Assembly (NCBI GenBank): GCA_024639455.1
Contig: JAHEIH010000026.1
Coordinates: 54,887 to 118,886, forward strand
Reading direction: 5' to 3'
Origin: Cellvibrionales bacterium
GTDB lineage: Bacteria; Pseudomonadota; Gammaproteobacteria; Pseudomonadales; JAHEIH01
Length of the DNA: 64,000 bases
The notes under the pieces are model-generated. The model was not told where the DNA came from. It was given only the letters and a program-made list of their open reading frames with translations, and did no database searches. Position 1 is the stretch's first letter. Each line of letters opens with the position of its first letter. Below are positions 23,449 to 41,443 of the stretch, piece by piece. The position numbers and the translations under genes were made by a program.

Positions 23449-26100
23449 TTAGAAGTTGTAAGTCACGCGAACACCGGCCGTGCGAGGACGAGAGTATGCA
23501 ACACGCTCTCTATCGTTCACGTAGTTACGAGACAGCTCTGCACGATCATCGGTCAGGTTGTCAACGTAAGCTTCGGCGGTCCACTCATTGGTGCTTACAC
23601 CAGCGGTAATACCTAACATGGTCCAGCTAGCAATACGGTCACGGTTAATCGTGATGATATCGCTGTAAGATTCCGCTGAGTGCGCCATGTGTGGCATCAC
23701 GTGGGCAATCATATCGCCACCAACATTCCACTCGTAGCGAGCAGACAAGTTAGCTTGGAAATCCGGCGCGAACGCCAAAGAATCGCCTTTACGCACATCA
23801 CCTGTAGGCGTAATAACATTGGTGATTTCAGTATCCAATGATGAGAATGCACCGTTGATGGTCAAACCAGGTACGCTGTCAGGCTGATAGATGAAATCGG
23901 CTTCCAAACCCATAACCTCGGCATCAGCCGCGTTGTCCGAGAAGAACAAGTTGGTAATACTGGGGTCAAAGATAGTGGTTTGTAAGCGCGAAATTTCTAC
24001 GAAGAACACGCTACCGTTGAAACGCACTTGACCGTCAGCCAAATCAGTTTTCCAACCAAATTCGTAGTTCATCACTTCATCGGTATCGAGCTCGAAAGGT
24101 ACAGTAAAGGTACCATCACCATTTGTCTTACCACCAGGGCGGTTCAACAGGCCAGGACGGTAGCCTTCAGATATCGTACCGTAGAACAACATGTCCGCAT
24201 TTGGACGGTAGTTCAACGTTGCCTTGAAGATAGTACCTTCGGCAATCGCTTTATCCGGCGCGCGCAGAGCATTGTAAATATATTGATTATCACCGTCGTA
24301 GGTATCTATGTTGTAGGTAATCTTCTCACCGCAAGTACCGTTGTTGGTGAAGTTGCCATCGCCGTCGTAAAGATCAGAAATGTTGGTACCGTATGAGTCG
24401 TTATCGCTACCATTACCGCCGTTACAGAATGACGAGTTAGCCGTACCGCGGAAGTCAACTTCCACGTTGTAGTATCGAGCACCCAAGGTGACTGCCCACT
24501 CTTCATTAAGATCCGCAGTGACCTCGCCGAAGATGCCGTACTGTTTGTCGGTACGCAGTACATCATTCAGGAAGATAACCCCGTTGTTGTTTCCGTTAGC
24601 GTCAAGGTTGAAGGGATCATTCGGGTTAGAGCTGTAATCAGCACCCGCAAACGTGTAGTTGGGTAAGAATCCCAATGGTTTGGTAGCACCGGTCGGATCG
24701 TAAAACTCGTTCCACCAAGTACGCGCATTAATAGTCCCTGGGTAGGTAAAGGCGTTACGCTCTTTAAGCTCCAAGTCACTCATGAAGGCACCAGCCGTGA
24801 AGTTGGTCTTCTCGTTGAAATTGCCAGAGAAACGCAACTCGTGGGTCTGAACCTCAGTATTGGTTGAGCTATCTACGTACAGATTGGGCGCTTGACAGGT
24901 GCCGGTAGGCAGACCGCCTGGCGCATAACCGGTGTAAGTAACGAAATAGTCACAGATATAGTAAGGCAGGTATTGCCCTACGAAAAGATAATCTGAATAG
25001 TCGATACGCTGAGTTGTTTGACGATCGGTATAAGCACCGGTGTAAACCACCTCAAGGTCATTCAACATGCCCTTCAAGGTCCAGCTCAAATTATCGAAAT
25101 CATCTTGTATTGTATTGTCAGTAAAGGTTTGAATCTCTAGATCGCCCAAATTGGGGTCAGCAAAGAAAACACCATCTGATTCAACACTTTGGGTAGCACC
25201 CGTCACCAATAAATTCCATTGGGGATTCAGGTCCATCGACAAGCCTAAGCGCGCGCCAGTGTAGGTCACGTCGTTAAGATTCTCGCCAACCAATGCACTG
25301 TTGTCCGCATCGATAAATGTGACGTTGCTTAAATCAGCACCTGCCTGGAAACCCGCGCGCGCTGGATCAACAGCGACACCGTTAGAACGAACGGTACCTG
25401 CCGCACGGAAGCGAGCACTTTCAGAGGCATTTCGTGTGGCTTGAACGTTATCGATATAACCGCCTTTATGGTCACGGTAGGCCACGGTACGCAAAGCGAC
25501 GGTATCGCTCAGCGGCGCGTTATACATAAATTCAAAGTTGTTGCTGGGATCACCTGATGAGGTGGTCGCCAAACCAGCTTTGATCTTACCGTATGTACCA
25601 GTGTGATCGGGCTTGTTGGTAATCAAACGCACAGTACCTGCCTGTGAGCTCGCACCGAATAGCGTACCCTGAGGACCAGACAATACTTCCACACGGCTTA
25701 AGTCAGCCGCGTATACGTCAAGGTTACGACCGGGCTGACCGAGAGGCTGCTCGTCTAAGTAAAGTGCAACGTTAGGTGCCAAACCCGCCACACCAGCAGT
25801 GGTCAAGTTTGGTGTGGTAGATGCAATACCACGGATGTAAATGGTGTTTTGACCAGGACCAGCACCACCAGCGGTAACGCCGGGTAGCTGGATTAGGTAA
25901 TCTTCAAAGTTTGAGATACCCATTTGGTCGAGTTTTTGTTCTGTCACTGCTGATACAGTCACAGGAATATCTTGGGTTGATGCTGTACGTTTGGTTGCTG
26001 TAACGACAACCTCTTCAATCGCTGCCATTGATTGCCCGGCTGCCATAGCAGCAGATACTGCTACAACTGCACTAGCGAGATGTTTCTTTTGAATATTCAT
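23449..26100 (-). CDS. TonB-dependent outer-membrane receptor in the methylated-amine island
   Basis: An 883-aa outer-membrane receptor. The signal peptide ends near QSMA-AI, a TonB-box-like EEVVVTATKR follows, then the plug (DIPVTVSAVTEQKLDQMGIS to RVEVLSGPQGTLFGASSQAG) and a barrel ending in the classical terminal Phe (TAGVRVTYNF). It resembles large receptors of unknown ligand in marine gammaproteobacteria, not BtuB. It lies 190 bp downstream of an MttB-family gene on the same strand and may be read with it or from its own promoter in the AT-rich gap 26101-26290. A ligand of the catabolic pathway, or a corrinoid needed by it, are both possible. Confidence 0.88.
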   Translation of the reverse strand: MNIQKKHLASAVVAVSAAMAAGQSMAAIEEVVVTATKRTASTQDIPVTVSAVTEQKLDQMGISNFEDYLIQLPGVTAGGAGPGQNTIYIRGIASTTPNLTTAGVAGLAPNVALYLDEQPLGQPGRNLDVYAADLSRVEVLSGPQGTLFGASSQAGTVRLITNKPDHTGTYGKIKAGLATTSSGDPSNNFEFMYNAPLSDTVALRTVAYRDHKGGYIDNVQATRNASESARFRAAGTVRSNGVAVDPARAGFQAGADLSNVTFIDADNSALVGENLNDVTYTGARLGLSMDLNPQWNLLVTGATQSVESDGVFFADPNLGDLEIQTFTDNTIQDDFDNLSWTLKGMLNDLEVVYTGAYTDRQTTQRIDYSDYLFVGQYLPYYICDYFVTYTGYAPGGLPTGTCQAPNLYVDSSTNTEVQTHELRFSGNFNEKTNFTAGAFMSDLELKERNAFTYPGTINARTWWNEFYDPTGATKPLGFLPNYTFAGADYSSNPNDPFNLDANGNNNGVIFLNDVLRTDKQYGIFGEVTADLNEEWAVTLGARYYNVEVDFRGTANSSFCNGGNGSDNDSYGTNISDLYDGDGNFTNNGTCGEKITYNIDTYDGDNQYIYNALRAPDKAIAEGTIFKATLNYRPNADMLFYGTISEGYRPGLLNRPGGKTNGDGTFTVPFELDTDEVMNYEFGWKTDLADGQVRFNGSVFFVEISRLQTTIFDPSITNLFFSDNAADAEVMGLEADFIYQPDSVPGLTINGAFSSLDTEITNVITPTGDVRKGDSLAFAPDFQANLSARYEWNVGGDMIAHVMPHMAHSAESYSDIITINRDRIASWTMLGITAGVSTNEWTAEAYVDNLTDDRAELSRNYVNDRERVAYSRPRTAGVRVTYNF

Positions 26101-26290: not shown

Positions 26291-27838
26291 TTAGAGCCTC
26301 TCATTAAATCCAGCGTCGGCTGGAATTTCACTTTCACGCTTTGATATAAAGTCGCGTAATTTTTGATCAATCTCCGGATCAAGCGACGGTTGCTGATACT
26401 CTGTTAGCAAGAATTTGGCCGCCGCCAATGATCGCGTTTCGAGGTCTTTTTCGCCGTCGAACTCCCACTGGGCGAAAAGTTGACCGTCGAAGTGCTCGGG
26501 CATGAAAAAGGCTTGTTTGAAATTTTCCATTGTGTGGGGATGCTCGAAATAGCGTCCCGATGGGCCGACGTCGCGCACCGCGACCAACGCCTCATCAAAA
26601 TTATCCCAATTGGGACCAGAGGCCATTTTATAGGCCATAGCACACTGCTCCGCATCGGCCATAAATTTGGCCACCGAACACAGCAGGCCCGATTCTGCCC
26701 AACCGGCGGCCTGCCAAATAAAATTAGCGCCGGCGTGCATCACCGACATGAGCGTCGAAGCCCCCTCGTAACCCGCTTGTGCGTCCAATGTTTTTGCTGC
26801 ACTTAACGCCCCAGAGGAACGGAAGGGAACTGAATAATGGCGCGCCATTTGCGCCAGCATGTAATTCATCAGCGATGTTTCAGGGGTGCCGACGAATGGC
26901 ATACCTGTTTTCATCGATACAGTGGACAAGTAGGCACCGTAAATCGCCGGCGCACCCTTACGCACCAATTGGGTATACGCTAAACCCGAGAGGGTTTCAG
27001 CATTGATCTGTGCCACCGAAGCTGGCACCGACGCTGGTGTATTGGCGCCGCCCAAGGTAAACGGCGTACATAACACAGGTTGTCGGCGCGACACATAGGC
27101 ACGCAGCGCCGAGGTCATGGTGGTGTCCCACACCAACGGCGACGTGCCTGAGATATTAGCCACCGTGACCGCGTGGTTTTCCAGAAAATCCTCGCCGAAC
27201 AAGATATCGCACATCGCCAGAACATCTTCAGCGTTTTTACCAGAACTGGTCATCCCCATAAACATCTTGTCTGAGTGGACCATGGACGAATAGGTAATGT
27301 GTAAATGGCGATGGGCTACAGGGATGTCGCTGGGATCGACGATGTGATGTCCGGTAGAGTGCATGCTCGGTAACATGTGCGCCAACTTGTGGAACATAGC
27401 CAAATCATCAAGCGTTGCTATTCGGCGCTGATTGTTAAGATCGCGCACATAGCTGGCACCCGACATCGGCACAAATACGGCCTTGTTGTCGCCAACGGCT
27501 AGATTATACGCGGGGTTTCGCGCGGTAAAGGCGATTTCCGATGGGAGGCTAGCGAGCAGTTCACGCAATAAATGGCGATCAATATACACGCGCTGATCGA
27601 CCACCTTGGCGCCGGCACGCCGCCAATCATCACGTGCCACCGGGTCGCGGAAGGTCACACCGACATTTTCCAAAATGGCCATAGATGCCTCGTCGATACG
27701 GGCAATCTGGTCAACGTTCATGACGGCTACCGGGGGTAGCACGTTGTTCAATGTGGGTAGCATGGGCGCGAGCTTTGATGATCGACTAGCGATTCGCTCT
27801 TGTCGTGCGCCTCGTCTACGCAATTGTCCTTTGGCCAT
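26291..27838 (-). CDS. MttB-family (COG5598) non-pyrrolysine amine methyltransferase, paralogue 1
   Basis: A 515-aa TIM-barrel methyltransferase of the trimethylamine methyltransferase family. Family members move a methyl group from a quaternary or tertiary amine to Co(I) of a corrinoid protein. The frame has no internal amber codon, so it belongs to the non-pyrrolysine group that includes glycine betaine methyltransferase MtgB. Recognisable segments are AILENVGVTFRDP near the N-terminus, FVGTPETSLMNYML and VPFRSSGALSAAKTLDAQAG. The first 22 residues form a basic tail (six Arg, two Lys). It is separated from fhs upstream by a strong terminator, so it may have its own promoter. The substrate of this paralogue is unknown. 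Confidence 0.88.
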   Translation of the reverse strand: MAKGQLRRRGARQERIASRSSKLAPMLPTLNNVLPPVAVMNVDQIARIDEASMAILENVGVTFRDPVARDDWRRAGAKVVDQRVYIDRHLLRELLASLPSEIAFTARNPAYNLAVGDNKAVFVPMSGASYVRDLNNQRRIATLDDLAMFHKLAHMLPSMHSTGHHIVDPSDIPVAHRHLHITYSSMVHSDKMFMGMTSSGKNAEDVLAMCDILFGEDFLENHAVTVANISGTSPLVWDTTMTSALRAYVSRRQPVLCTPFTLGGANTPASVPASVAQINAETLSGLAYTQLVRKGAPAIYGAYLSTVSMKTGMPFVGTPETSLMNYMLAQMARHYSVPFRSSGALSAAKTLDAQAGYEGASTLMSVMHAGANFIWQAAGWAESGLLCSVAKFMADAEQCAMAYKMASGPNWDNFDEALVAVRDVGPSGRYFEHPHTMENFKQAFFMPEHFDGQLFAQWEFDGEKDLETRSLAAAKFLLTEYQQPSLDPEIDQKLRDFISKRESEIPADAGFNERL

Positions 27839-27864
27839 CGGAGAGTTTTACCTTGTTATTTTTT

Positions 27865-27917
27865 CAAAAAAAACCGATGAGTTTTTGAGGTTAGTGCTGT
27901 CTCAAAAAGTCACCGGT
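27865..27917 (-). terminator. Strong terminator between fhs and mttB paralogue 1
   Basis: A 17-bp stem (27873-27889 with 27901-27917; one G-U pair and one mismatch, loop of 11 nt) is followed on the minus strand by a run of eight U from the A-tract at 27866-27873. It ends the dmgdh-ramA-fhs transcript before the methyltransferase gene. Confidence 0.85.
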
Positions 27918-27950
27918 TGTTTCATCCTCTATGCCGAGGTTTTCGTTTGC

Positions 27951-29642
27951 TTAGAACAGGCCTTCGATATGGCCGTCCTGGTTAACGAAAATACGTTCAG
28001 CGGTGGGCACACGAGGCAGACCAGGCATAGTCATGACGTCACCACAGATCACTACCACGAAACCTGCACCGGCTGACAAACGAACATCACGGATAGGCAC
28101 CACGTGGTCAACCGGGGCACCGTAGAGATTGGGATCCGTACTAAACGACAACGGGGTCTTCGCGATACACACAGGCAGATGCCCGAACTCTTCTTGCAGT
28201 GTGGCAATTTGATCGCGGACTTTTTTGTCAGCGATGATGTCGTTAGCACCATACAGCTCAGTCGCGATGGTTTTTACCTTGTCCCACAGGCTCACGTCGT
28301 CGCTGTACAAGGGGCGGAAATTATCTTCGCCTTTCTCGATCACGGCAATCACTTCGCGCGCTAGATCTTCAGCACCTTCACCACCCATAGCCCAGTGATC
28401 AGACATGATAGCTTTCGCGCCAATCTGCTCACACAATTCTTTCAACATGGCGATTTCAGCATCGGTATCGGCGCTGAAACGGTTGATGGCAACCACCACC
28501 GGCACACCGAATTTACGGGTGTTTTTCACGTGGCGAGCAATGTTAGCAAAACCTTTACGAACGGCTTCAACGTTCTCGGTTTTGAGCTCTTCGAGGGCAG
28601 CACCACCGTGCATTTTCAGCGCACGAATAGTACCCACAATGACCGCTGCATTTGGCTTCAAGCCAGACTTGCGCATTTTGATGTTGAAAAACTTCTCTGC
28701 ACCCAGGTCGGCACCAAAGCCTGCTTCAGTTACTACGTAGTCAGCCAGTTTCAAGGCGGTAGAGGTCGCCAACACTGAGTTACAGCCGTGCGCGATGTTC
28801 GCGAAAGGACCGCCGTGAACGAATGCTGGCGTGCCTTCCAAGGTCTGTACCAAGTTGGGCTGGATAGCGTCTTTCAACAGCGCAGTCATCGCGCCTTCAG
28901 CATTCAATTCGCGCGCGTAGATGGCTTTCTGATCGCGGGTGTAACCGATCACAATGTTGCCCAAACGCTGCTGCAAGTCTTCCAGGCTGGTTGCCAAACA
29001 GAAAATCGCCATAACCTCAGAAGCCACGGTGATATCGAAGCCATCAGTGCGTGGGTAGCCGTTACCAATACCCCCCAAGCTGTTAGTGATTTGACGCAGG
29101 GCGCGGTCGTTCATATCCACCACACGACGCCAGCTCACACGACGCACATCGATACCCAGATCGTTGCCCCAGTAAATGTGGTTATCGATCATGGCAGACA
29201 ACAAGTTGTGCGCTGCACCGATGGCATGGAAGTCGCCGGTAAAGTGCAGGTTAATGTCTTCCATTGGAATGACTTGAGAGTAACCACCCCCAGCAGCACC
29301 ACCTTTGATACCAAAGCAAGGACCGAGCGAAGGCTCGCGCAAGCAAATGGCAGTTTTCTTACCCAAACGCGACAGTGCATCGCCCAAGCCCACAGTGGTG
29401 GTGGTTTTACCTTCACCCGCTTTGGTGGGGTTGATACCAGCAACCAAAATCAACTTGCCATCTTGGCGGTCTTTCAGGCCATTGATGTAGTCGAGGCTAA
29501 TTTTCGCCTTATGGTGTCCGTAGGGCTGCAGATCGTCATAGCCCAAGTCAAGTTTAGCGGCGACTTCGGCAATGGGGCGAATCTGGGCTTCGCGTGCAAT
29601 TTCGATATCCTGCTTAGGATTCTTGTGTTGTGAGGCTGGCAT
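27951..29642 (-). CDS. fhs: Formate--tetrahydrofolate ligase
   Basis: A 563-aa cytoplasmic enzyme that interconverts formate, ATP and THF with 10-formyl-THF. The P-loop [18 protein letters not shown] lies near residue 73, followed by [19 protein letters not shown] and the C-terminal family region (TPLSFSTDP). Length is typical. In this island it could run towards formate and ATP, draining one-carbon units released from betaine methyl groups, or capture formate. It is 24 bp downstream of the activase gene and ends the dmgdh-ramA-fhs operon before a strong terminator. Confidence 0.96.
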
Positions 29643-29666
29643 CTTAGTGACTCCTTAAAACCATTA

Positions 29667-31757
29667 TTATTTTGCTGAACGACGGCGTCTGCCGCGGACA
29701 GCATTAGTGTTAGCCGAACTTGAGCTGCGACGGTCAGCTAGACCGGGAATCGCCGCTTCAAGTTTGGGGAAGGGATCGGTGCTGTGGGGGAATCCCATAG
29801 CGCCTACAAAATGGGCTTGGAACGAGGCTTCTGTCGCGGTTTCGATCTTTTCAATACGGCGGATCACCGGCTCGACTTCGTTGCGAGCGTGGCGATTGAT
29901 CAACGCAATGCGGGCGCCTTCTCCAGCGGCATTACCGACGCCTCCGACATTGGCGAGGTCACAATCGGGGATCATTCCAAGTAGCATCGCGTATTTGACA
30001 TCGATACGGCTGCCAAAAGCACCCGCCAGTTTGATGCGCTCAACGTTTTCACTACCAAACTTATCCATCAACAAGCGTATGCCAGCATATAAAGCCGCCT
30101 TGGCCAATTGGATGGCACGCACGTCATTTTGAGTAATCTTTAAGGTGCGCGTTCCTTGGTATAACACGTAGCTGTACGTGCGACCGTCTTGAATCACGCG
30201 CGGTGAAGGTCTGTCATCCTGCGGCTTAATCACACCATCGCGGTTGATAATGCCAGCGAGGAACATCTCACCAATAATTTCGATAATACCGGAACCACAA
30301 ATACCGCTGATCTGAAGGCTTGACGATGACATTTCAAAGGTAGGGTCATTCGACCACGGGTCACAACCGATAACTTTGAAGGCCGGGTCCAGCGTCATGC
30401 GATCGATGCGCACGCGCTCAATGGCGCCCACTGCGGCGCGCTGGCCGCAGCTAATTTGTGCGCCTTCGAATGCAGGCCCGGTGGGGCTAGACGCCGCCAG
30501 CATACGATTGCGATTGCCCAACACGATTTCGGCATTGGTACCCACGTCGACAATCAAGGTCAACTCATCTGACTGGTCTGGGCGCTCTGACAACACCACG
30601 CCCGCAGCGTCAGCACCAATGTGACCAGCCAAGCAAGGCAGTAAGAAAATACGCGCTGCATCGTGCAGCGGAATATCGAGTTCCGCAGCGCTGACTTCCA
30701 TCGCTTGATCAACCGCCAAGTTAAACGGTGCACCACCCAATGGCACAGGGTCAAGGCCTAGCAGAATGTGGTGCATGATGGGGTTACAAACGATCACCAC
30801 ATCCATCACGTCGCTAGCTTTCAACCACGCCTGCGTCGCCGCTTCTTTGATCAAATCGGCAATGCGCTGACGGACAACTTTGCTCATTTCCTCGGCGCCG
30901 CCCTCATTCATCATCGCGTAGGACACGCGACTCATGAGGTCTTCACCAAATTTAATTTGTGGATTCATCGCCGAGGCTGAGGCAAGCACCTTACCATCGC
31001 TCAGGTCTGCCAAGTGAGCGACGATACTGGTAGAACCCAAATCGATAGCACACCCATAAGCCTTAGCTTCGTGGCCGGGCCAAATGGCAACGATTTGCGG
31101 AGGCTTGCGCACTGAGTTGAAGATCGCCACGCTGACTTTCATCGACGTGTCCGGCGTTTTCTTCATATGCTCGGTAACCATAGCTTGCAGATGTCTCACC
31201 ATGGACAGTTCATACCACAACCCAGTGAGATCATTATTAGACTGCAAATCTGTCACCAAGCGGCTCATATCTGCGTGGGGGACATCCATAATGGGCGCTG
31301 GTATATAGGCGGTAAAAACCGACACTGCGGGTGCCAAGTCAATATCGCGATCTTCAATCGCCTTAGCAATATCCTGTTCATGCGACTGGCTACTGGCGGG
31401 AATTTCGATCACAACATCGTTCATGATCTTAGCGGTACAACCCAAGCGAGCACCGAGTTGTCGCTCGTCCCCTACACGCCCCGCTTCCACTTCTTTAAAT
31501 TCTGACAAACTGTCATGGGTCGAATTCACCCCATATTTGGGGAAGTCGCCCACTACGTGGTAGACCTTGCACGTGCCGCAAATACCTTGGCCACCGCAGA
31601 CTGACTCTACGTCAACACCCAAGCGACGAGCTGCCCGTAAAACGGGCATACCCTCAGGTACCTCGCCTCGGATACCCGAGGGGGTAAAAATCACTTTGAC
31701 GTTTTTCAGGTTCTTCGCACGGCGAGACCTGCGTGAGACCAAGGTTGATTCGCTCAT
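29667..31757 (-). CDS. RamA-like corrinoid reductive activase (2Fe-2S + ASKHA, DUF4445)
   Basis: A 696-aa protein that probably reactivates oxidised Co(II) corrinoid to Co(I) with ATP, as RACo/RamA-type activases do. The N-terminal ferredoxin domain has C54, C60, C63 (CGGQGICGTC) and C107 (LGCTAK) for a 2Fe-2S cluster. The C-terminal ASKHA ATPase part has YGCAIDLGSTSIVAHLADL, VDVGTNAEIVLG and LAGAFGSRID. Both ends are basic: four Arg and three Lys in the first 21 residues and seven Arg in the last 23. It begins 7 bp after the dehydrogenase stop, so the two are co-transcribed. RamA of methanogens uses 4Fe-4S clusters; the plant-type 2Fe-2S here matches bacterial activases. Confidence 0.88.
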   Translation of the reverse strand: MSESTLVSRRSRRAKNLKNVKVIFTPSGIRGEVPEGMPVLRAARRLGVDVESVCGGQGICGTCKVYHVVGDFPKYGVNSTHDSLSEFKEVEAGRVGDERQLGARLGCTAKIMNDVVIEIPASSQSHEQDIAKAIEDRDIDLAPAVSVFTAYIPAPIMDVPHADMSRLVTDLQSNNDLTGLWYELSMVRHLQAMVTEHMKKTPDTSMKVSVAIFNSVRKPPQIVAIWPGHEAKAYGCAIDLGSTSIVAHLADLSDGKVLASASAMNPQIKFGEDLMSRVSYAMMNEGGAEEMSKVVRQRIADLIKEAATQAWLKASDVMDVVIVCNPIMHHILLGLDPVPLGGAPFNLAVDQAMEVSAAELDIPLHDAARIFLLPCLAGHIGADAAGVVLSERPDQSDELTLIVDVGTNAEIVLGNRNRMLAASSPTGPAFEGAQISCGQRAAVGAIERVRIDRMTLDPAFKVIGCDPWSNDPTFEMSSSSLQISGICGSGIIEIIGEMFLAGIINRDGVIKPQDDRPSPRVIQDGRTYSYVLYQGTRTLKITQNDVRAIQLAKAALYAGIRLLMDKFGSENVERIKLAGAFGSRIDVKYAMLLGMIPDCDLANVGGVGNAAGEGARIALINRHARNEVEPVIRRIEKIETATEASFQAHFVGAMGFPHSTDPFPKLEAAIPGLADRRSSSSANTNAVRGRRRRSAK

Positions 31758-31764
31758 AGTGAAC

Positions 31765-34278
31765 TTATGCTCTCAGTTTCGCGTTTTGGGCATCGTAAGG
31801 TGATTCTTCAATCACGGTCGCCTGGTAGAGTTCGCCCAGGATTTCGATCTGCAATGCGGTGCCAATGGCAGCATATTCTGGCGCCACCAAACCCAGTGCC
31901 AGTGACTTTTCAACACGCCACCCGTAACCACCCGAGGTGGCCCGGCCAACCAGTTCGCCGTCTTTGTAGATCGCTTCTGAACCGCGCGCATCCGCGTCGG
32001 TTACACCATGGACTTCTAGGGTAACGAAAGCATTTTTGAAGCCGCGCTCCTGCCACGCTTTCAGGCCTTCTTTTCCGATGAAGTCGCACTCCTTGTCGAG
32101 GCGAACGAATCGGTCAAGACCCGACTCGAGCGCTGAGTACTCGATCGACATTTCGCGAGGAATCAAACGGTAAGATTTTTCTAGGCGCATACAATCCATG
32201 GCGCGGATACCGAAGGGTTTGATATCAAACTCTGCACCGGCCTTCATCAGCTCATCAAAGATGTAGTTTTGCATCTCCATGGGGTGGTGCAATTCCCAGC
32301 CCAATTCGCCGACAAAGTTTACGCGTAACGCGTGTGCTTGGGCGTAGCCAACGTTGATGAACTTGCCGCTCAACCATGGGAAATTGGGGTTGCTCAAATC
32401 AGTGTCGGTAATCTTCTGCAGCACGTCGCGCGCCTTGGGACCCGCCAGCACCAGCACGCCCATCTGCGTGGTGATCAACTGTAGGTCTACGCTGCCATCG
32501 GTGGGCTTAAGCTTGTGCAGGTAATCAAAATCATGGGTTTCGAAAGCGCCAGCAGATACTAAGTAATATTTATTGGCAGCCATCTTGTAGACAGTGAATT
32601 CAGCACGCACACCGCCAGAGTTAGTCAGCATATGACACAGACCTACGCGACCCACTTTCTTAGGAATAGTGTTCGCCAAAATAGATTCCAACCACGCTTC
32701 AGCACCGGGGCCGGTAACCATGGTTTTGGCAAAGGCCGACATATCTAACAGACCAACTTTCTCGGCTACGTGCTTACACTCGTTGCCGACAAACTCGAAG
32801 TAGTTAGAGCGACGGAAAGAGTTTTTCTCGACGATACGGCCATCTTCTAGCGGCGCGGAGTGGTTCTTTTTCCACAATACATCCGCCATGTTGAGATCTT
32901 CTTCGCTCAACGAGTAATCTTTGGGGGCAAACCAGTTGGGGCGCTCCCAACCATATACCGAACCAAAGACGGCACCGAGCTCTTTCATGCGGTCGTAGCA
33001 TGGGGTAGTTCTCAGAGGACGCGCAGATGAACGCTCTTCATCGGGATAGTGCGTGGTAAATACGTTGCGGTAGGCTTCTTCGTTCTTGTCGCGCAGGTAG
33101 CCACGTGATGCATACGGGCCAAAGCGACGTGGATCCACGCCCATCATGTCAACGGTAGGCTCACCATCTACAATCCACTCGGCCAACTGCCAACCGGCAC
33201 CACCGGCAGCGGTGATGCCAAAGCTGTGGCCTTCATTCAACCAGAAGTTTTTCAGACCTGGCGCGGGACCAACGATGGGGTTACCATCCGGGGTGTAAGC
33301 GATCGCACCGTTGTATACGTACTTCACACCCACATCACCAAAGGCAGGCACGCGCTCCATACATTTTTCGATGTGCGGCATCAAGCGGTCGAGTTCTTCG
33401 TTGAACAGCTCCCATTCGCAATGTTCACCGGGGCCATCGACATAACATACCGGCGCACCTTGCTCGTAGGGACCTAACAGAAGACCACCCGCCTCTTCGC
33501 GCAGGTAGTAACCAGAATCTGATTCACGCAGCACGCCCATCTCGGGCTCACCGCGCGCTTGACGCGCTTTAATTTCGGGGTGTGGCTCAGTCACGATAAA
33601 CTGGTGCTCTACGGGAATCACAGGCACATCAAGGCCAACCATTTCACCCGTCTTGCGTGCAAAGCTACCGGTACATGACACCACGTGTTCACACACGATA
33701 TCGCCCTTGTCGGTGCATACCTTCCACATACCATCAGCTTGCTGCTCAATGCTCAACACCGTGGTGAAGCGGTGGATTTTTGCACCCATATTGCGGGCAC
33801 CCGTGGCCAATGCCTGGGTCAGATCCGCCGGTTGAATGTAGCCATCTTCAGGGTGCTGGATCGCACCAAGCAAGCCTTCGGTTTCGCACAGCGGCCAAAT
33901 TTCTTTCACTTGCTCTGGTGTCAAGAAATTAACATCAACGCCCACAGTTTTGGCCACGCCGCTGTAATACTTGTACTCGTCCATGCGGTATTCGCAGTTG
34001 GCTAAGCGGATGTTACTCACCTTGCTCAAGCCAACGTTCTTACCGGTTTCTTTCTCGAGTTCTTGGTAGAAGTCCACAGAATACTGGTGCAACTTGCCTA
34101 CCGAGTAGCTCATGTTAAACAGGGGCAGCAATCCGGCGGCGTGCCAAGTAGAGCCAGAAGTCAGCTCTTTACGCTCGATCAGAACGCAATCTGACCAACC
34201 TTTTTTAGCTAAGTGATAAAGGGTACCTACACCCACTACACCACCACCAATCACGACTACGCGAGCTGTTGATTCCAC
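31765..34278 (-). CDS. Dimethylglycine dehydrogenase-like FAD/GcvT-fold enzyme
   Basis: An 837-aa two-part flavoenzyme. Residues about 5-400 form the DAO-type FAD domain (ARVVVIGGGVVGVGTLYHLA, then SGSTWHAAGLL with the His used for covalent FAD in relatives), and residues about 420-837 form the folate-binding GcvT-like domain (DMSAFAKTMVTGPGAEAW, GELGWELHHP). Such enzymes demethylate dimethylglycine or sarcosine and pass the carbon to THF. Start GTG at 34278 is chosen because AGGAG lies 7 nt upstream; the longer ATG frame at 34335 has no ribosome site. First gene of the dmgdh-ramA-fhs operon, divergent from mttB paralogue 2. Dimethylglycine is the best guess because SoxBDAG handles sarcosine. 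Confidence 0.88.
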   Translation of the reverse strand: MESTARVVVIGGGVVGVGTLYHLAKKGWSDCVLIERKELTSGSTWHAAGLLPLFNMSYSVGKLHQYSVDFYQELEKETGKNVGLSKVSNIRLANCEYRMDEYKYYSGVAKTVGVDVNFLTPEQVKEIWPLCETEGLLGAIQHPEDGYIQPADLTQALATGARNMGAKIHRFTTVLSIEQQADGMWKVCTDKGDIVCEHVVSCTGSFARKTGEMVGLDVPVIPVEHQFIVTEPHPEIKARQARGEPEMGVLRESDSGYYLREEAGGLLLGPYEQGAPVCYVDGPGEHCEWELFNEELDRLMPHIEKCMERVPAFGDVGVKYVYNGAIAYTPDGNPIVGPAPGLKNFWLNEGHSFGITAAGGAGWQLAEWIVDGEPTVDMMGVDPRRFGPYASRGYLRDKNEEAYRNVFTTHYPDEERSSARPLRTTPCYDRMKELGAVFGSVYGWERPNWFAPKDYSLSEEDLNMADVLWKKNHSAPLEDGRIVEKNSFRRSNYFEFVGNECKHVAEKVGLLDMSAFAKTMVTGPGAEAWLESILANTIPKKVGRVGLCHMLTNSGGVRAEFTVYKMAANKYYLVSAGAFETHDFDYLHKLKPTDGSVDLQLITTQMGVLVLAGPKARDVLQKITDTDLSNPNFPWLSGKFINVGYAQAHALRVNFVGELGWELHHPMEMQNYIFDELMKAGAEFDIKPFGIRAMDCMRLEKSYRLIPREMSIEYSALESGLDRFVRLDKECDFIGKEGLKAWQERGFKNAFVTLEVHGVTDADARGSEAIYKDGELVGRATSGGYGWRVEKSLALGLVAPEYAAIGTALQIEILGELYQATVIEESPYDAQNAKLRA

Positions 34279-34381
34279 AATGACACTCCTAATATGAATT
34301 CGAATTATGGGCGCACAAATACGCCTAATTATCATTTTGGCAAGAGTCTACCGATGCAGCTCAAACGCGTACTATGTTAAT

Positions 34382-34410
34382 TGCGACAGGCAAGTACTCA
34401 TTTACGACAG
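34382..34410. promoter_or_regulatory. 21-bp-spaced direct repeat in dmgdh/mttB2 divergent promoter
   Basis: TGCGACAG (34382-34389) and TACGACAG (34403-34410) lie exactly 21 bp apart, roughly midway in the 265-bp gap between the two starts. The same motif and spacing occur at 39625-39653. This is the expected layout for the AraC/GlxA-type regulator encoded at 36243. Confidence 0.7.
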
Positions 34411-34543
34411 CGGCTATTTCCCTATTTTTTTTATGGCGCGTTGAGACAACTGTATGTCGCGAAGGAAAAGGGTGCGCGAGGAAAGTCCATGCAATATAAC
34501 AGCGATAAAAAGTCTAACCCTATCTATCGTTGAGAACTGAATT

Positions 34544-36112
34544 ATGACTGATGCAGCAACCAATGTACGTCGCGGTGGTCGCCGCGCCGGTGGACGAGCC
34601 GATCGCAGAGCAGCAGCCGGTGAAGCAGTAATCGCTCCCGCTTATTTGACGCGTAAAATCCCTACTTTCAGCATTCTAAACGAGGAAGGCCTAGCCCAGA
34701 TCGAACACAATGCCGATACCATCTTGGAAGAAATTGGTATTGAGTTCCGCGACGACCCTGAGTCACTGGACATACTAAAAAACGCCGGCTGTGACGTAGT
34801 TGGTGAACGGGTTAAATTTCCCCGTGGCATGTGCCGCCAGATCATTCAAGCATCGGCACCGCGCGAATACACCCAACATGCACGCAACCCAGCGCGCAGT
34901 GTAAAAATCGGTGGCGACAACACCGTTTTCGTACCCGCTTACGGCTCACCTTTCGTTTACGACATCGAGCAAGGCCGTCGTTACGCCACCATTAAAGACT
35001 TCGAAAACTTTGTAAAACTGGCCTATATGTCTCCCGGCCTTCACCACTCGGGCGGCACCGTGTGCGAACCCGTTGACTTGCCGGTTAACAAGCGTCACTT
35101 TGACATGCTTTACAGCCACATGAAGTATTCAGACAAAGCGTTTATGGGCTCGGTTACAGCACCCTCTCGCGCACAAGACTCGGTCGACATGTGTAAGATT
35201 TTGTTTGGTGATGATTACTTGGATCCTGCCACTGGCAAGCCCAAGACCTTCATGACTAGCCTGATCAACGCTAACTCGCCTATGACTTTCGACGACACCA
35301 TGCTCGGCGCCGCCAAGGTATTCGCGCGCACCAACCAAGCCTGTATCATCACCCCCTTCATTTTGGCCGGCGCCATGTCACCGGTGACCGTAGCCGGCAC
35401 AGCGGCGCAATCATTGGCCGAAGCCATGGCTGGAATGACTTTGGTGCAGCTGGTCAACCCCGGTGCTCCTGTCATTATGGGCAGCTTCGCCAGTTCGATT
35501 TCTATGCAGTCTGGCGCCCCCACTTTCGGTACCCCCGAGCCCGCCATGGTACTTTACGTAATGGCTGAACTAGCACGCCGCCTGGGCGTACCTTTCCGCT
35601 CTGGCGGTAGCCTGTGTGGCTCTAAACTACCCGACGCACAAGCCGCTAGCGAAGCCGCCAATACCTTAATTCCCACCACGTTAGCTGGTGTGAACTTTGT
35701 ACTTCACACCGCTGGTTGGTTAGAGGGTGGTCTGGCAATGGGTTACGAGAAATTCATCATGGATGCTGACCAAGCAGCGATGATGGCTGTGCAATTGGCC
35801 GGTGTCGATATATCTGAAAACGGCCAAGCAATGGACGCCATTCGCGAAGTGGGTCCAGGTAGCCACTTCTTAGGTTGCGCCCATACTCAAGCCAACTTTA
35901 AAACAGCCTTCTACCGCTCAGCCATTACTGACAACAATAGCTATGAACAATGGGCATCAGAAGGCAGCAAAGATATGGCGACTCGATCCTACGAGCGCTG
36001 GAATAGCATGTTAAATTCTTACGAAGCACCCGCGCTTGACGAAGCCACCGATGAGGCTCTGCTGGACTTTATCAGTCGTCGCAAATCGGAAATGCCCGAC
36101 GCAACCCATTAA
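34544..36112 (+). CDS. MttB-family non-pyrrolysine amine methyltransferase, paralogue 2
   Basis: A 522-aa COG5598 methyltransferase without an internal amber codon, the likely glycine betaine:corrinoid methyltransferase (MtgB-type) or a relative acting on another quaternary amine. It shares with paralogue 1 the blocks ILEEIGIEFRDDPE, FGTPEPAMVLYVM and VPFRSGGSLCGSKLPDAQAA but is clearly diverged. The first 27 residues form an Arg/Gly/Ala tail with seven Arg (VRRGGRRAGGRADRR). It is divergent from the dehydrogenase operon and followed by its own terminator and then the regulator. Which paralogue is the betaine enzyme cannot be settled by eye. Confidence 0.9.
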   Translation: MTDAATNVRRGGRRAGGRADRRAAAGEAVIAPAYLTRKIPTFSILNEEGLAQIEHNADTILEEIGIEFRDDPESLDILKNAGCDVVGERVKFPRGMCRQIIQASAPREYTQHARNPARSVKIGGDNTVFVPAYGSPFVYDIEQGRRYATIKDFENFVKLAYMSPGLHHSGGTVCEPVDLPVNKRHFDMLYSHMKYSDKAFMGSVTAPSRAQDSVDMCKILFGDDYLDPATGKPKTFMTSLINANSPMTFDDTMLGAAKVFARTNQACIITPFILAGAMSPVTVAGTAAQSLAEAMAGMTLVQLVNPGAPVIMGSFASSISMQSGAPTFGTPEPAMVLYVMAELARRLGVPFRSGGSLCGSKLPDAQAASEAANTLIPTTLAGVNFVLHTAGWLEGGLAMGYEKFIMDADQAAMMAVQLAGVDISENGQAMDAIREVGPGSHFLGCAHTQANFKTAFYRSAITDNNSYEQWASEGSKDMATRSYERWNSMLNSYEAPALDEATDEALLDFISRRKSEMPDATH

Positions 36113-36127
36113 TAAATCTCTTTCATG

Positions 36128-36152
36128 AAACGGCCTAACGGCCGTTTTTTTT
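36128..36152 (+). terminator. Terminator of mttB paralogue 2
   Basis: AAACGGCC-TAAC-GGCCGTTT followed by T to 36152, 15 bp after the stop. Confidence 0.92.
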
Positions 36153-36242
36153 CGCATTTTCAAAGACCTGTTACAAAACATAAGATTGACCAAATAATAT
36201 TATTGGTTTAAAACGCAACTATATTTTGAAGCGTCGATTCAT

Positions 36243-37217
36243 ATGCTTAACATAAAAACTGAAACCATTAAGATAGGTTTTTTATTGCTCGATGAGTTCA
36301 CTATGATGGCATTTACCGCCGCCATTGAACCATTGCGTATGGCTAACCGCCTACTGGAACGTGATCAATACACGTGGGACCTTATCACCCAGAACGGTGA
36401 ATTATGCCGAGCCAGCAACGGCATCGCTGTTCAAGCCGATCACGGCTTGGTGAATATGCCTGCGCTAGACTACTTGTTTGTTTGCGGTGGCATTAATGTG
36501 CAAGACAAGTACAACGCCAACCTCGCTAGCACACTGACTAAAATCGCCAAATCCAAAACTATTTTGGGCGGCGTTTGCACAGGCAGTTACATCCTGGCAA
36601 AAACGGGTTTGTTAAACGGTTATCGCGCCGCCATCCACTGGGAAAACCTCGCCAGTACCCGTGAAGAATTTCCCTCCATCAATGTGGTAGAAGATATCTT
36701 TGTCTTCGACAAAAACCGCTACACCAGCGCCGGCGGTGTGGCAGCGATGGACATGATGCTGCACGTGATCAGCATGACCATGGGAAACACCCTGGCTACC
36801 AATATTTCAGAACAGTTTTTGTTGTCGCGCATCCGTGACCGCGAGGACCAGCAGCGCACCCCGCTACACATAAAACTCGGCCCTAACCAACCTAAATTGA
36901 CCGAAGCTGTGTCGCTAATGGAAGCCAACATTGAAGAACCCATTGGGCTAGAAGAATTATCGTCGCTAGTGGGTATATCTAGACGCCAACTGGAACGCCT
37001 GTTTCAAAAGTACTTGCACTGCGTACCAACTCGATACTATATGGAATTGCGCCTGAAGCGGGCACGTTTGCTACTGCTGCAGACCGACAAACCGGTGATC
37101 GACATCGCGCTAGCTTGTGGCTTCATTTCTGCCACCCATTTCAGCAAATGCTATCGCGATTTTTATAGTATTCCACCCAGCGGAGCTAGACGCCAAAAAT
37201 TAAAGGCCTTGCACTAA
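36243..37217 (+). CDS. GlxA-type AraC regulator, GbdR-like
   Basis: A 324-aa regulator with an N-terminal DJ-1/PfpI-like domain (IGFLLLDEFTMMAFTAAIEPLR, split here as a fold description, and GGVCTGSYILAKTGLL) and a C-terminal AraC double helix-turn-helix (LEELSSLVGISRRQLERLFQ; DIALACGFISATHFSKCYRD). This architecture is that of GbdR and CdhR, which control glycine betaine and carnitine catabolism in Pseudomonas. Position inside the island and two 21-bp-spaced repeats at its divergent promoters make it the probable activator. The start lacks a strong ribosome site, suggesting low expression. Confidence 0.88.
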   Translation: MLNIKTETIKIGFLLLDEFTMMAFTAAIEPLRMANRLLERDQYTWDLITQNGELCRASNGIAVQADHGLVNMPALDYLFVCGGINVQDKYNANLASTLTKIAKSKTILGGVCTGSYILAKTGLLNGYRAAIHWENLASTREEFPSINVVEDIFVFDKNRYTSAGGVAAMDMMLHVISMTMGNTLATNISEQFLLSRIRDREDQQRTPLHIKLGPNQPKLTEAVSLMEANIEEPIGLEELSSLVGISRRQLERLFQKYLHCVPTRYYMELRLKRARLLLLQTDKPVIDIALACGFISATHFSKCYRDFYSIPPSGARRQKLKALH

Positions 37218-37237
37218 GCTAGTAGCGCAAGGCCTTT
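37202..37237. terminator. Inverted repeat between convergent regulator and methyl-THF methyltransferase genes
   Basis: AAAGGCCTTGC (37202-37212) and GCAAGGCCTTT (37227-37237) form an 11-bp stem. On the minus strand AATTTTT follows; on the plus strand only TTTATG. The regulator's stop codon lies in the loop. It can serve both convergent transcripts. Confidence 0.55.
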
Positions 37238-37262
37238 ATGTAGAGCTCAATTCAATCGCGAA

Positions 37263-38168
37263 TTAGCTACTGCGACGACGTCCGCTAGTTCGACGGCCAC
37301 GTGCACCAGCCTCACCTGCAGCAGGCGCCTCACGGAAACGCTTGATCCAATTAACGCAATCGGGGTCGCGCCCCATCATCACGTCCGCACCTAACGTGGC
37401 GCTGATAATTTCCTTGTGCATGGGGTTGGCAATCGCCGACGTCATACCCGCGTGAATCGCCATACTTAAGAAAGCACCATTCACACCGTCGCGGTTGGGT
37501 AGACCAAAGCTGATATTTGAGGCACCACAAGTGGTGTTTACTTTCAATTCGGTACGTAAACGGTGGATCAATTTCATCGCTTGCAAGCCAGCGGTATTAA
37601 TAGCACCCACAGGCATCACCAGCGGATCAACCACGACATCACACGCGGGAATACCGTAGTCAGCGGCGCGGTTAACGATCTTTTTCGCTACTTCGAAACG
37701 CACATTGGGGTCTTCAGAAATACCTGTTTCGTCGTTCGAAATCGCTACCACAGCAGCGCCGTATTTCTTAACCAGCGGCAGTACTCGCTCCATTTGCTCA
37801 TCTTCGCCGGTCACTGAGTTCACCAGCGCTTTGCCTTTGTAAACCGCCAAGCCAGCGGCTAGCGCCTCGACAATCGATGAGTCGATAGCCAGCGGGGTAT
37901 CGGTCAGCGACTGCACTAACTGAATGGTTTCAGCCAAAATCTTGGGCTCGTCGGCCAGAGGAATACCAGCGTTGACGTCTAACATGTGCGCACCCGCTTC
38001 AACCTGTGCTAAAGCGTCAGCTTTCACTCGGCTGTAATCGCCATTCTTCATCTCTTCTGCGAGAAGTTTACGGCCGGTGGGATTGATGCGCTCACCAATA
38101 ATTACGAAGGGGCGCTCGAAGCCCATCACGACTTCTTTGGTAGCTGAACTTAAAATTGTGTCAGTCAT
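37263..38168 (-). CDS. Methyltetrahydrofolate:corrinoid methyltransferase (MtgA/MeTr-like)
   Basis: A 301-aa pterin-binding TIM barrel (dihydropteroate synthase-like) that moves methyl groups between corrinoid protein and THF. Family marks are FVIIGERINPTGRK at the N-terminus, GAHMLDVNAGIP, LAIDSS, VNSVTG and NTTCGASNISFGLPNR. In the MtgABC betaine system this is the MtgA role. The C-terminal 17 residues form a tail with six Arg (RGRRTSGRRRSS) beyond the barrel. It is third in the minus-strand operon after the corrinoid protein and DUF1638, 30 bp after the latter. Confidence 0.9.
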   Translation of the reverse strand: MTDTILSSATKEVVMGFERPFVIIGERINPTGRKLLAEEMKNGDYSRVKADALAQVEAGAHMLDVNAGIPLADEPKILAETIQLVQSLTDTPLAIDSSIVEALAAGLAVYKGKALVNSVTGEDEQMERVLPLVKKYGAAVVAISNDETGISEDPNVRFEVAKKIVNRAADYGIPACDVVVDPLVMPVGAINTAGLQAMKLIHRLRTELKVNTTCGASNISFGLPNRDGVNGAFLSMAIHAGMTSAIANPMHKEIISATLGADVMMGRDPDCVNWIKRFREAPAAGEAGARGRRTSGRRRSS

Positions 38169-38198
38169 TGTTATAGTGTCTCCATCAGAAGAAAGTCA

Positions 38199-38819
38199 TT
38201 AACGATGCGCCGCGTCGACAAAACGCACGATCGATGTCGCCATGTCGCCGATACCGGTAAAGCGGTACTCGTACGACAAACCTAACTCTTCAGCCGCTGC
38301 CTGTGCCGCCTGCTGTAGCTCACAATCTTCCGTCTGAGCTAAATAGACGAGCTTTTTGTAGTGACCAAAAAACATCGGTTTTAGGGCGGGCTTTTTATCC
38401 AGCCCGAGCCCTCTAATCACCAGGCGATCGAAATGCCGCGCCAGGAAATCCGTTAAATAAAAGGTGCCAAGTTCGTCTTCATGCATCGCATTGAAGGACT
38501 CATCACCGGCAAAAAATTGGTAGCAGTGGGCGCCGGGGATGCGATCGACATCTTCCTCGGCTAGCAACCGGTCCAACATGCCACCTGTACCACAGTCGCC
38601 ATAGGCGACAAAAACCTCAGCGCCACGCGCTTTTGCTCGATCAATACTTTCGCTAACCGCGTCAGTAATGAGATCGGGGCGGTTGTGCAACTCCGCGGTG
38701 ATAGCGTCGACACTGACGTGCGACCAATGGTTGAGCTTTTTCAACGCGTTGATTTCTTTCAACAGCGCCGAACAAGCCACAATGACTATCTCAGCGGGTG
38801 GCGCGGCATCCGCCCCCAT
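38199..38819 (-). CDS. DUF1638 family protein
   Basis: A 206-aa cytoplasmic protein with the DUF1638 hallmarks YGDCGTGGMLDRLL and GAHCYQFFAGDE. It starts 8 bp after the corrinoid gene and precedes the methyl-THF methyltransferase, so it is embedded in the methyl-transfer operon. DUF1638 often accompanies MttB-type genes, but I know of no proven role. The conserved Cys, His and Asp residues would suit metal or corrinoid handling, which is inference. Confidence 0.82.
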   Translation of the reverse strand: MGADAAPPAEIVIVACSALLKEINALKKLNHWSHVSVDAITAELHNRPDLITDAVSESIDRAKARGAEVFVAYGDCGTGGMLDRLLAEEDVDRIPGAHCYQFFAGDESFNAMHEDELGTFYLTDFLARHFDRLVIRGLGLDKKPALKPMFFGHYKKLVYLAQTEDCELQQAAQAAAEELGLSYEYRFTGIGDMATSIVRFVDAAHR

Positions 38820-38827
38820 GACTGGTC

Positions 38828-39535
38828 CTAAGCCGCGCGACGCGTGGCGATCAGGTCTTTCGCCATATCGACAGCAACACCAGCGTCGCGGCAGTAAGCA
38901 TCGGCGCCAACGGCCATACCAAACTCTTCGTTCAGAGGCGCACCACCCACCATGACGATGTAGTCATCGCGAACGCCTTTCTCAACCATAGTGTCGATAA
39001 CGACCTTCATGTACGGCATAGTAGTGGTCAGCAACGCTGACATGCCGAGGATGTCGGGCTTGTGCTCTTCAAGTGCATCAAGGTATTGCTCGACAGGTAC
39101 GTTGATGCCGATATCGATAACTTCGAAGCCAGCACCTTCCATCATCATTGACACCAAGTTTTTACCGATGTCGTGGATGTCGCCTTTAACCGTGCCGATA
39201 ACCATTTTTCCGATCGACTCAGCGCCAGTTTCGGTCAAGATGGGACGCAAAATTGCCATACCCGCTTTCATGGCGTTAGCCGCACACAGTACTTCGGGCA
39301 CGAACAGAATGCCGTCGCGGAAGTCGACGCCCACGATAGCCATGCCAGCAACCAGTGCGTCAGACAACACCTTGTCAGCTCCCCAACCGCGATCTAACAG
39401 AATCTGAGTGCCTTCAGCAATTTCATCTTCAAGACCGTTATAGAGATCGTCGAACATCTGCTCAACCAGCTCTTCATCGTTGAGTTCGTTGAGGTCGAGG
39501 AAATCATCATCGTAATTATCGTCTTGGCCTGTCAT
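38828..39535 (-). CDS. Corrinoid protein (MtgC/MttC-like methyl carrier)
   Basis: A 235-aa B12-binding protein that carries the methyl group on cobalt between the amine methyltransferase and the THF methyltransferase. The cap four-helix bundle spans about residues 20-105, and the Rossmann-like part has the cobalt-ligand motif D119-x-H121-x-x-G124 (KGDIHDIGKN), GMSALLTTTMPYM and VMVGGAPLNEEF. The ATG at 39535 is chosen because GGAGG lies 7 nt upstream; the longer frame lacks support. The N-terminus is strikingly acidic: 17 Asp/Glu in the first 42 residues and no Lys or Arg before residue 49. First gene of the operon, divergent from soxBDAG. No cobalamin riboswitch is seen upstream. Confidence 0.92.
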   Translation of the reverse strand: MTGQDDNYDDDFLDLNELNDEELVEQMFDDLYNGLEDEIAEGTQILLDRGWGADKVLSDALVAGMAIVGVDFRDGILFVPEVLCAANAMKAGMAILRPILTETGAESIGKMVIGTVKGDIHDIGKNLVSMMMEGAGFEVIDIGINVPVEQYLDALEEHKPDILGMSALLTTTMPYMKVVIDTMVEKGVRDDYIVMVGGAPLNEEFGMAVGADAYCRDAGVAVDMAKDLIATRRAA

Positions 39536-39653: not shown

Positions 39654-39878
39654 ACGCTTTTTATCACCCGTAACTCCCTGTCTACAAAGGGGTTGTGGAA
39701 TTTCAATTTTTGAGGGCAGGTCGTTTTTTTACATATAGACGCCGCTGAGATGCAAATCGGCGCAAGATGTTAGCGCTAGAATCGCTGGATTATAGAAAAA
39801 TTCGCATTGATGTTGCGATATACCCCGTCATACTTGCGGGTTAGCGTCATCTACGATTTCAACGTTGAGGGTTTAACT

Positions 39879-41132: not shown

Positions 41133-41145
41133 GAGGAGAGTTGCG

Positions 41146-41433
41146 ATGTTACATATTTTTTGTCCTCACTGTGCTGAATACCGCGAGGAAGAAGAGTTCC
41201 ACGCCAAGGGACAAGCCCATATTCCCCGCCCCCTCGACCCAGAGGCATTGAGCGATAAGGAGTGGGGTGAATACCTGTACTTCCGTAAAAACCCACGTGG
41301 CATCCACCACGAGTTGTGGGTGCATGCGGCCGGCTGTCGTAAGTTTTTCAATATGACGCGCGACACTGTGACCTACGAAATCCACGAAACGTACAAGATC
41401 GGCGAAAAGCCCACTGTCACAGCGCAGTCTTAG
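41146..41433 (+). CDS. soxD: Sarcosine oxidase subunit delta
   Basis: The small zinc-binding subunit (95 aa). Two N-terminal cysteines (C6, C9 in FCPHCAEYREEEEF) and the later HHELWVHAAGCRKFF supply metal ligands. It starts 13 bp after soxB behind AGGAGAG and precedes soxA, the standard gene order. Confidence 0.95.
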   Translation: MLHIFCPHCAEYREEEEFHAKGQAHIPRPLDPEALSDKEWGEYLYFRKNPRGIHHELWVHAAGCRKFFNMTRDTVTYEIHETYKIGEKPTVTAQS

Positions 41434-41443
41434 GAGCGGAACA

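Follow-up and report, generated by a model that had tools for sequence, protein, structure and literature searches.

Four enzymes and one carrier protein, encoded in a bacterial gene island, bear terminal segments of opposite charge. The island lies at 26291..39535 of a 64,000-nucleotide stretch of DNA from a Cellvibrionales bacterium (contig JAHEIH010000026.1; the whole stretch is called the window here). Two MttB-superfamily methyltransferases, a corrinoid activase and the methyltransferase MtgA carry Arg-rich tails, and the putative corrinoid carrier MtgC, their candidate common partner, carries an acidic N-terminal extension. We propose that tails and extension form a docking code that would bring each client enzyme to the common carrier; reasoning from the sequences, we give this reading a probability of roughly 0.62. 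Tails and extension co-occur on the same protein families across distant genomes, and both are missing with another type of carrier. A docking code predicts co-occurrence on clients and joint loss, and it gains support because the tails vanish with the extension and because MtgE, a fifth enzyme absent from the window, is tailed as well. An earlier, sequence-only reading of this DNA had already held that the tails dock the clients on the carrier. That core idea is supported, in that the tails track the expected clients; the roles it gave to oxygen and to an N-terminal activase tail are not.

What do these segments look like? MttB1 (26291..27838, minus strand) has six Arg in residues 1-29 (27752..27838) and MttB2 (34544..36112, plus strand) seven in residues 1-33 (34544..34642). 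The RamA/RACo-like activase (29667..31757, minus strand) has seven Arg at its C-terminus (residues 665-696, 29670..29765) and a basic N-terminal stretch with four Arg and three Lys (residues 1-19, 31701..31757). MtgA, the methyl-tetrahydrofolate (methyl-THF):corrinoid methyltransferase (37263..38168, minus strand), ends in a tail with six Arg (residues 283-301, 37266..37322). The extension of MtgC (38828..39535, minus strand) comprises residues 1-23 (39467..39535), with ten acidic residues and an LxxLxDxEL stretch; over residues 1-42 we count 17 Asp or Glu, and the first basic residue is number 49. Re-read from the DNA, the Arg counts of the four enzymes and the acidity of the carrier proved to be as the sequence-only reading had given them. 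It was also right that the tails are not copied DNA, because Arg codons are mixed inside them. They lie at different ends of unrelated families. In MttB, MtgA and the activase the bias toward Arg rather than Lys is stronger in the tail than in the core of the protein, and this holds for all three GC classes compared. AlphaFold2 predicts residues 1-28 of MttB2 to be disordered (pLDDT below 50).

How unusual are such ends? We applied a uniform threshold of at least five Arg in the first 30 or in the last 20 residues to the 36 non-overlapping window open reading frames (ORFs) of at least 150 amino acids. Three pass at the N-terminus (MttB1, the activase and MttB2) and three at the C-terminus (the activase, MtgA and a TonB-dependent receptor), so that five of the six matches belong to the two MttBs, MtgA and the activase, the last of which passes at both ends. 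As a background rate, 94 annotated non-client coding sequences on three named plasmids, from Azoarcus sp. KH32C, Sinorhizobium meliloti and Paracoccus methylovorus, give six N-terminal and four C-terminal matches (103 of the 111 annotated features were used, cut or very small ones being omitted).

Aligning homologues, the check that the sequence-only reading had suggested, shows the tails recurring on the same families, at the N-terminus of MttB and the C-termini of MtgA and the activase, and the extension recurring on MtgC. Among the best 120 of 8000 homologues of MttB2, itself included, 119 have at least four Arg or Lys before the conserved core; the one exception, 503 residues long, has a shorter N-terminus. 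The window carrier and its 119 homologues, again the best 120 of 8000, all have at least eight acidic residues in the extension. We also read 80 related loci, which are the best of 585 relatives and so close to MttB2, with the window alongside. Anchored reading finds MttB tails there in 87/87 rows (the window's two proteins are counted twice; two rows without a usable start are dropped, of which L060 is visibly tailed). Five Arg in the last 18 residues are reached by 34/34 MtgA proteins and by 34/36 activases, the net charge of the 35 readable activase tails running from +4 to +12. The extension is acidic in 36/36 rows, with net charges of -13 to -4. Charge is kept while tail sequence drifts in MttB, MtgA and the activase. 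Some activase tails are Lys-rich (KKARRKKKRSR; L314, L330), hinting that charge is needed there more than Arg as such. As a shared feature, the N-terminal tail of the activase falls away: only 2/34 activases reach five Arg in the first 28 residues, and the stretch is peculiar to the window.

Other proteins of the same loci lack tails. The dimethylglycine dehydrogenase-like (DMGDH), Fhs and DUF1638 proteins had been described as tail-free, which holds in the window and at the C-ends in relatives: 0/59 for DMGDH, 0/8 for Fhs and 0/32 for DUF1638, with 0/9 for Fhs N-ends. DMGDH-type N-ends pass a crude count in 8/58 cases, several of them sarcosine-oxidase-type paralogues of about 1000 residues, and the GbdR regulator passes in 1/27. 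We tried DUF1638 as an acidic partner and rejected it, its C-end being neutral (median 0). Unassigned frames near the carrier pass the counts in 101/755 N-ends and 37/746 C-ends, most of the listed ORFs looking antisense or spurious; inspection by eye of this list from the related loci yielded no further recurrent tailed family besides MtgE. No client-carrier fusion occurs in the 83 sequences scanned. The 80 loci include ones attributed to Gamma-, Beta- and Alphaproteobacteria, SAR324, Deltaproteobacteria and a Chloroflexi metagenome-assembled genome (MAG), and some attributions look wrong. A MAG labeled Klebsiella pneumoniae (L041) has an MttB of this type in the one neighborhood read, that of MttB; its label looks wrong.

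Do the tails follow the carrier? From a draw of 398 Pseudomonadota genomes, our own excluded, 41 bear MttB, and 40 of these have one stand-alone MtgC-type carrier (406-463 bits; the extension was read in 32 of the 40). In the remaining genome, G337, there is just MetH and a fragment of MttB. There are two or three MttB matches in 37 of the 41 (at most three were scored), and the best MttBs read in 30 of the genomes are tailed in 30/30. A second draw took 235 genomes of the phylum of genome G006, together with two follow-up fetches, and here both kinds of system are found. Adjacent MttB-carrier pairs are either tailed and acidic (four: L118, L119, L120 and L128) or tail-less and non-acidic (five: L123, L142, L143, L343 and L381), with none mixed, so that tail and extension occur and vanish together in all 9/9 readable pairs. 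The MttB of L381 is a weak match of 52 bits, L121 and L371 are cut by a contig end, and the carrier of G191 is a piece at a contig end. Genomes G006 and G129 each hold both kinds of carrier, with tailed and tail-less MttBs. MttB genes with in-frame TAG, as in pyrrolysine enzymes, occur at L141 and L143 (G006) and at a place in G245; both genomes have tailed MttBs too.

The activase tells much the same story. Within the MtgC-type subfamily, activases bear the tail in 47/47 genomes; in other subfamilies 0/8 proteins do. In the second draw 13 of the 14 activase-bearing genomes agree, seven having an acidic carrier and a tail and six having neither (two-sided Fisher p of about 0.005, worked by hand and ignoring kinship). 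Tails are kept even where MttB and the activase lie on contigs other than that of the carrier, G582 being an example.

If tails mark users of the carrier, then MtgE, which is the homocysteine methyltransferase in split methionine synthases, should be tailed. MtgC has been proposed to be common to betaine demethylation and methionine synthesis (PMC12478193). MtgE is the only recurrent further tailed family seen near the carrier, at seven loci. In 15 genomes, MtgE-type proteins are tailed in 10/10 cases and the other closed PF02574 proteins in 0/14; seven of those ten had already been seen in the related loci and guided the choice of genomes, and the bit cut-off for calling a protein MtgE-type was chosen post hoc. 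This set covers 30 of 37 places plus L083, and seven MetH frames extend beyond the sequence read. The 41 MttB-bearing genomes provide an independent test, in which the C-terminal tail is found on 39/39 MtgE-type proteins (at least 372 bits, the next score being 128) versus 1/42 closed other PF02574 proteins. The one passing paralogue appears to be part of a split MetH read out of frame. Here 90 of 103 places were fetched, the 13 omitted being the lowest scoring, and ten MetH frames likewise extend beyond the sequence read. The comparison of MtgE with PF02574 paralogues is a control within one fold and within the same genomes. The window's own genome has no stand-alone MtgE-type PF02574 match, the sole PF02574 match lying inside a 1241-residue MetH frame (L083); since MetH is kept there and no stand-alone MtgE is matched, MtgC in this genome would serve betaine demethylation only.

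AlphaFold2 gives MtgC residues 1-10 a pLDDT of 39 and residues 11-20 a pLDDT of 86, the latter leading into the first cap helix, and L15, L18, D20, E22 and L23 are invariant in 50 close rows. The extension is thus an acidic end, for which disorder is predicted, followed by a short conserved motif. Charge sets the carrier types apart in the extension (median -10 for 120 proteins of the acidic type versus +1 for six of the other type, the six being taken from open frames with no start assigned), and the cores are equally acidic (-17 versus -16). The motif at the base of the extension, LxLxxLxDxEL (residues 14-23), is largely kept where acids are few, as in Paracoccus; this motif may be the real contact, with the acids only helping. 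One carrier homologue of 386 residues (P0121) has its corrinoid domains in tandem, possibly through natural duplication or an assembly error.

Several observations weigh against a docking code. With a cruder choice of start, only 68/85 MttB rows reach five Arg in the first 28 residues. On the named plasmids the MtgA C-ends have 4, 5 and 4 Arg in the last 20, so that only 1/3 passes, and MetF, which is not a client, has 4, 1 and 1. G129 has an acidic carrier, yet the only activase found there is tail-less; L094, a 339-bit MtgE relative in G006, a genome with an acidic carrier, is tail-less too, and is counted among the 0/14 above. The Paracoccus extension has only four acids in its first 16 residues, and the predicted fold of MtgC residues 11-20 means that the extension may also have a structural role. 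Nor is a match in the amount of charge upheld. Across the 29 loci with all four proteins, the acid count of the carrier correlates with the summed client charge (raw rho 0.67, n=29), and the correlation is lost after independent contrasts (r 0.18, p 0.29), so we drop quantitative charge matching; client by client the contrasts give p 0.08 for MttB2, 0.03 for MtgA and 0.72 for RamA, uncorrected for several tests. Finally, the MttB tail needs only four changes on the tree, two of them forced by supported branches, which is too few for a significance test. Independent pairs on that tree number one on supported branches and two on all, and the tree includes L118, an 80-residue piece with a very long branch.

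Could the tails have another purpose? Nucleic acid and anionic lipids are frequent ligands of Arg-rich tails with this kind of composition. The tails here might thus bind something else that the system has in common, be it RNA, polyphosphate or the negatively charged membrane around the betaine transporter, while the extension has a separate structural job, as the folded prediction for residues 11-20 and the invariant Leu positions would allow. We consider this unlikely: the tails vanish with the extension even inside one genome, neither the C-ends of DUF1638, Fhs and DMGDH in these loci nor the PF02574 paralogues have tails, and MetF stays under the threshold in 3/3 cases, narrowly in one. 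A second alternative, which we judge to be just as improbable, dispenses with one-to-one docking. The Arg/Gly-rich tails would be multivalent stickers that form a condensate, an MttB hexamer displaying six of them and the acidic carrier acting as counter-ion. The preference for Arg over Lys and the predicted disorder in MttB2 suit such a condensate, and Methanosarcina barkeri MttB is a D3 hexamer (PMC9842639); the MtgC extension, being short and partly predicted to be folded, does not.

It may also be asked whether the tails have any common role at all. They could be lineage markers that arose once per family as the system spread and were then kept for solubility or for nothing in particular, their link to the carrier being inherited. 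The few independent changes within MttB and the loss of the charge correlation after phylogenetic correction point this way. Such an account has difficulty with the same composition appearing in four client families and at two different ends, with sequence that drifts while charge stays, and with the tails that persist in G582 on contigs away from the carrier; we hold it to be the least probable of the three.

The sequence-only reading had added that the charged assembly may limit cobalt oxidation in air. This part we abandon. Carrier type predicts tails better than a COX1-family match does, because acidic and non-acidic carriers share genomes G006 and G129 and because six genomes with a COX1-family match and no acidic carrier have tail-less activases. 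Among genomes with an acidic carrier, all but G011 have a COX1-family match (10/11); among those without one, all but G194 do (6/7). The COX1 family also includes NO reductases. A bd oxidase scores above cut-off in 0/11 genomes with an acidic carrier versus 4/7 without, so that, if anything, it goes with tail-less systems. Oxygen as the determinant of tails was dropped above all on the strength of the two mixed genomes.

Is there a precedent for a docking code? By analogy, MtaC, a corrinoid protein that docks on MtaB through its N-terminal domain, provides one: in the methanol methyltransferase complex MtaBC (2I2X) an extra N-terminal piece of MtaC fits on the methyltransferase (PMC9842639). 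That domain fits a groove between the subunits of one partner, whereas the short acidic extension of MtgC would meet four partner families. The MttB-MttC structures of M. barkeri (7XCL, 7XCN) have the same enzyme and carrier folds, MttC being the top fold match of MtgC, but belong to a pyrrolysine enzyme; the Arg tail and most of the extension lie outside the match, because the alignments begin at MttB query residue 49 and at MtgC residue 19. Solved homologues from anaerobes likewise align from the core only, and their constructs may be trimmed. MtgB of Desulfitobacterium (2qne, 9yce) belongs to the glycine betaine:corrinoid methyltransferase family and is tail-less, as are its relatives (1/120 tailed in the best 120 of 4680, the named ones mostly Bacillota). 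A parallel in parts is the split methionine synthase or MtgBCDE system of Phaeobacter and Ruegeria, whose carrier, folate module and activase are of the same families (PMC5764234, PMC12478193); the window's genome differs in its 1241-residue MetH frame and in having no match to a stand-alone MtgE. The words arginine and docking occur 0 times in PMC12478193. A search of the literature on MttB and corrinoid methyltransferases and on split methionine synthases, covering listings and passages and few subscription papers, yielded no report of these tails.

Single-chain MetH offers a way to think about how the parts might work together. Its homocysteine (Hcy), folate, B12 and reactivation modules are covalently linked and grouped about a single corrinoid; the window's system consists of separate chains with charged tails. 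MttB apart, the tailed proteins correspond to modules that are parts of one chain in MetH. In the mechanism we propose, the Arg tail of MttB, MtgA, the activase and, where present, MtgE would bind the acidic extension of MtgC, probably in a weak and exchangeable manner. Such binding would concentrate client and carrier locally and allow the corrinoid domain to visit the active sites in turn, much as the linkers of MetH do. MttB would load a methyl group; MtgA and MtgE would unload it, onto THF and homocysteine respectively; and the activase would supply electrons for rescue. The docking domains of polyketide synthase and nonribosomal peptide synthetase megasynthases are a familiar case in which short segments at chain ends bring together the separate polypeptides of a pathway. 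In the system proposed here, by contrast, a single carrier extension would meet many clients.

Genetics in P. inhibens shows that three methionine-synthase pieces (the carrier, folate and Hcy modules), a RamA-like activase and DUF1638 act together (PMC5764234). DUF1638 thus works in the system yet is tail-less.

The function of each island protein is predicted from its family. MttB1 and MttB2 match PF06253 over their full length (628.8 and 767.3 bits, cut-off 25). We rejected them as pyrrolysine enzymes: against TIGR02369 they score 268.5 and 273.1 bits versus a cut-off of 525, and both are open frames with no in-frame TAG. MtgC is a stand-alone protein with the PF02607 helical cap and the PF02310 B12 domain, both above cut-off, and its best fold match is MttC (7xcn). 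Its top NCBIfam match is NF047996, the MtgC glycine-betaine corrinoid protein, and because it misses that cut-off (210.6 bits, cut-off 370), MtgC is used here as a working name after PMC12478193, in whose naming our MtgA is MtgD. Its start at 39535 is an ATG with a five-base match to AGGAGG upstream, in agreement with homologue starts. The activase has the C-terminal ASKHA domain of RACo and an iron-sulfur domain (PF14574, 295.4 bits; PF17651; PF00111, 35 bits; all above cut-off) and misses the cut-off for RamA of methanogens (TIGR04270, 95.2 bits, cut-off 500). MtgA belongs to the MtgA/PRK07535 family (NF005719, 359.6 bits, cut-off 259). The tail-less members of the island are Fhs, a formate-THF ligase (27951..29642, minus strand, profile match); the DMGDH-like FAD/GcvT enzyme (31765..34335, minus strand, profile match); a GbdR-like regulator (36243..37217, plus strand; NF052371, 430.4 bits, under the cut-off of 480); and DUF1638 (38199..38819, minus strand; PF07796).

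The island has neighbors of interest on both sides. At 39807-44461 lie genes for an FAD oxidoreductase and a large sarcosine oxidase alpha-like protein, which likely complete the conversion of betaine to glycine. The TonB-dependent receptor, the sole non-client protein to pass the C-end threshold in the window, adjoins the island at 23449-26100. Near other carriers, in Azoarcus and S. meliloti, a small protein annotated as 'virulence factor' and a MetF pair adjoin the carrier genes (L384, 21285-21620; L385, 23900-24202); none of these proteins passes the tail counts.

Why would such a code matter? Glycine betaine is a major marine osmolyte. The gene set fits the aerobic glycine betaine demethylation reported in marine bacteria, and genes of the carrier system are reported to be highly expressed in the ocean (PMC12478193). 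The finding bears on the sharing of one reactive corrinoid by separate chains that have no covalent linkers between them. More tentatively, the tail may be a transferable address label, such that any enzyme with an Arg tail, at whichever end, becomes a client of the acidic corrinoid carrier; we regard this as possible, and less probable than docking as such. If so, the code would replace the covalent linkers of methionine synthase, and new donors (MttB paralogues) or acceptors (MtgE) could be joined to one carrier without new fitted interfaces. A tail code, if true, would account for the many donors served by a single carrier, would allow clients to be predicted from their sequences alone, and could offer a means of wiring new methyl donors onto a carrier.

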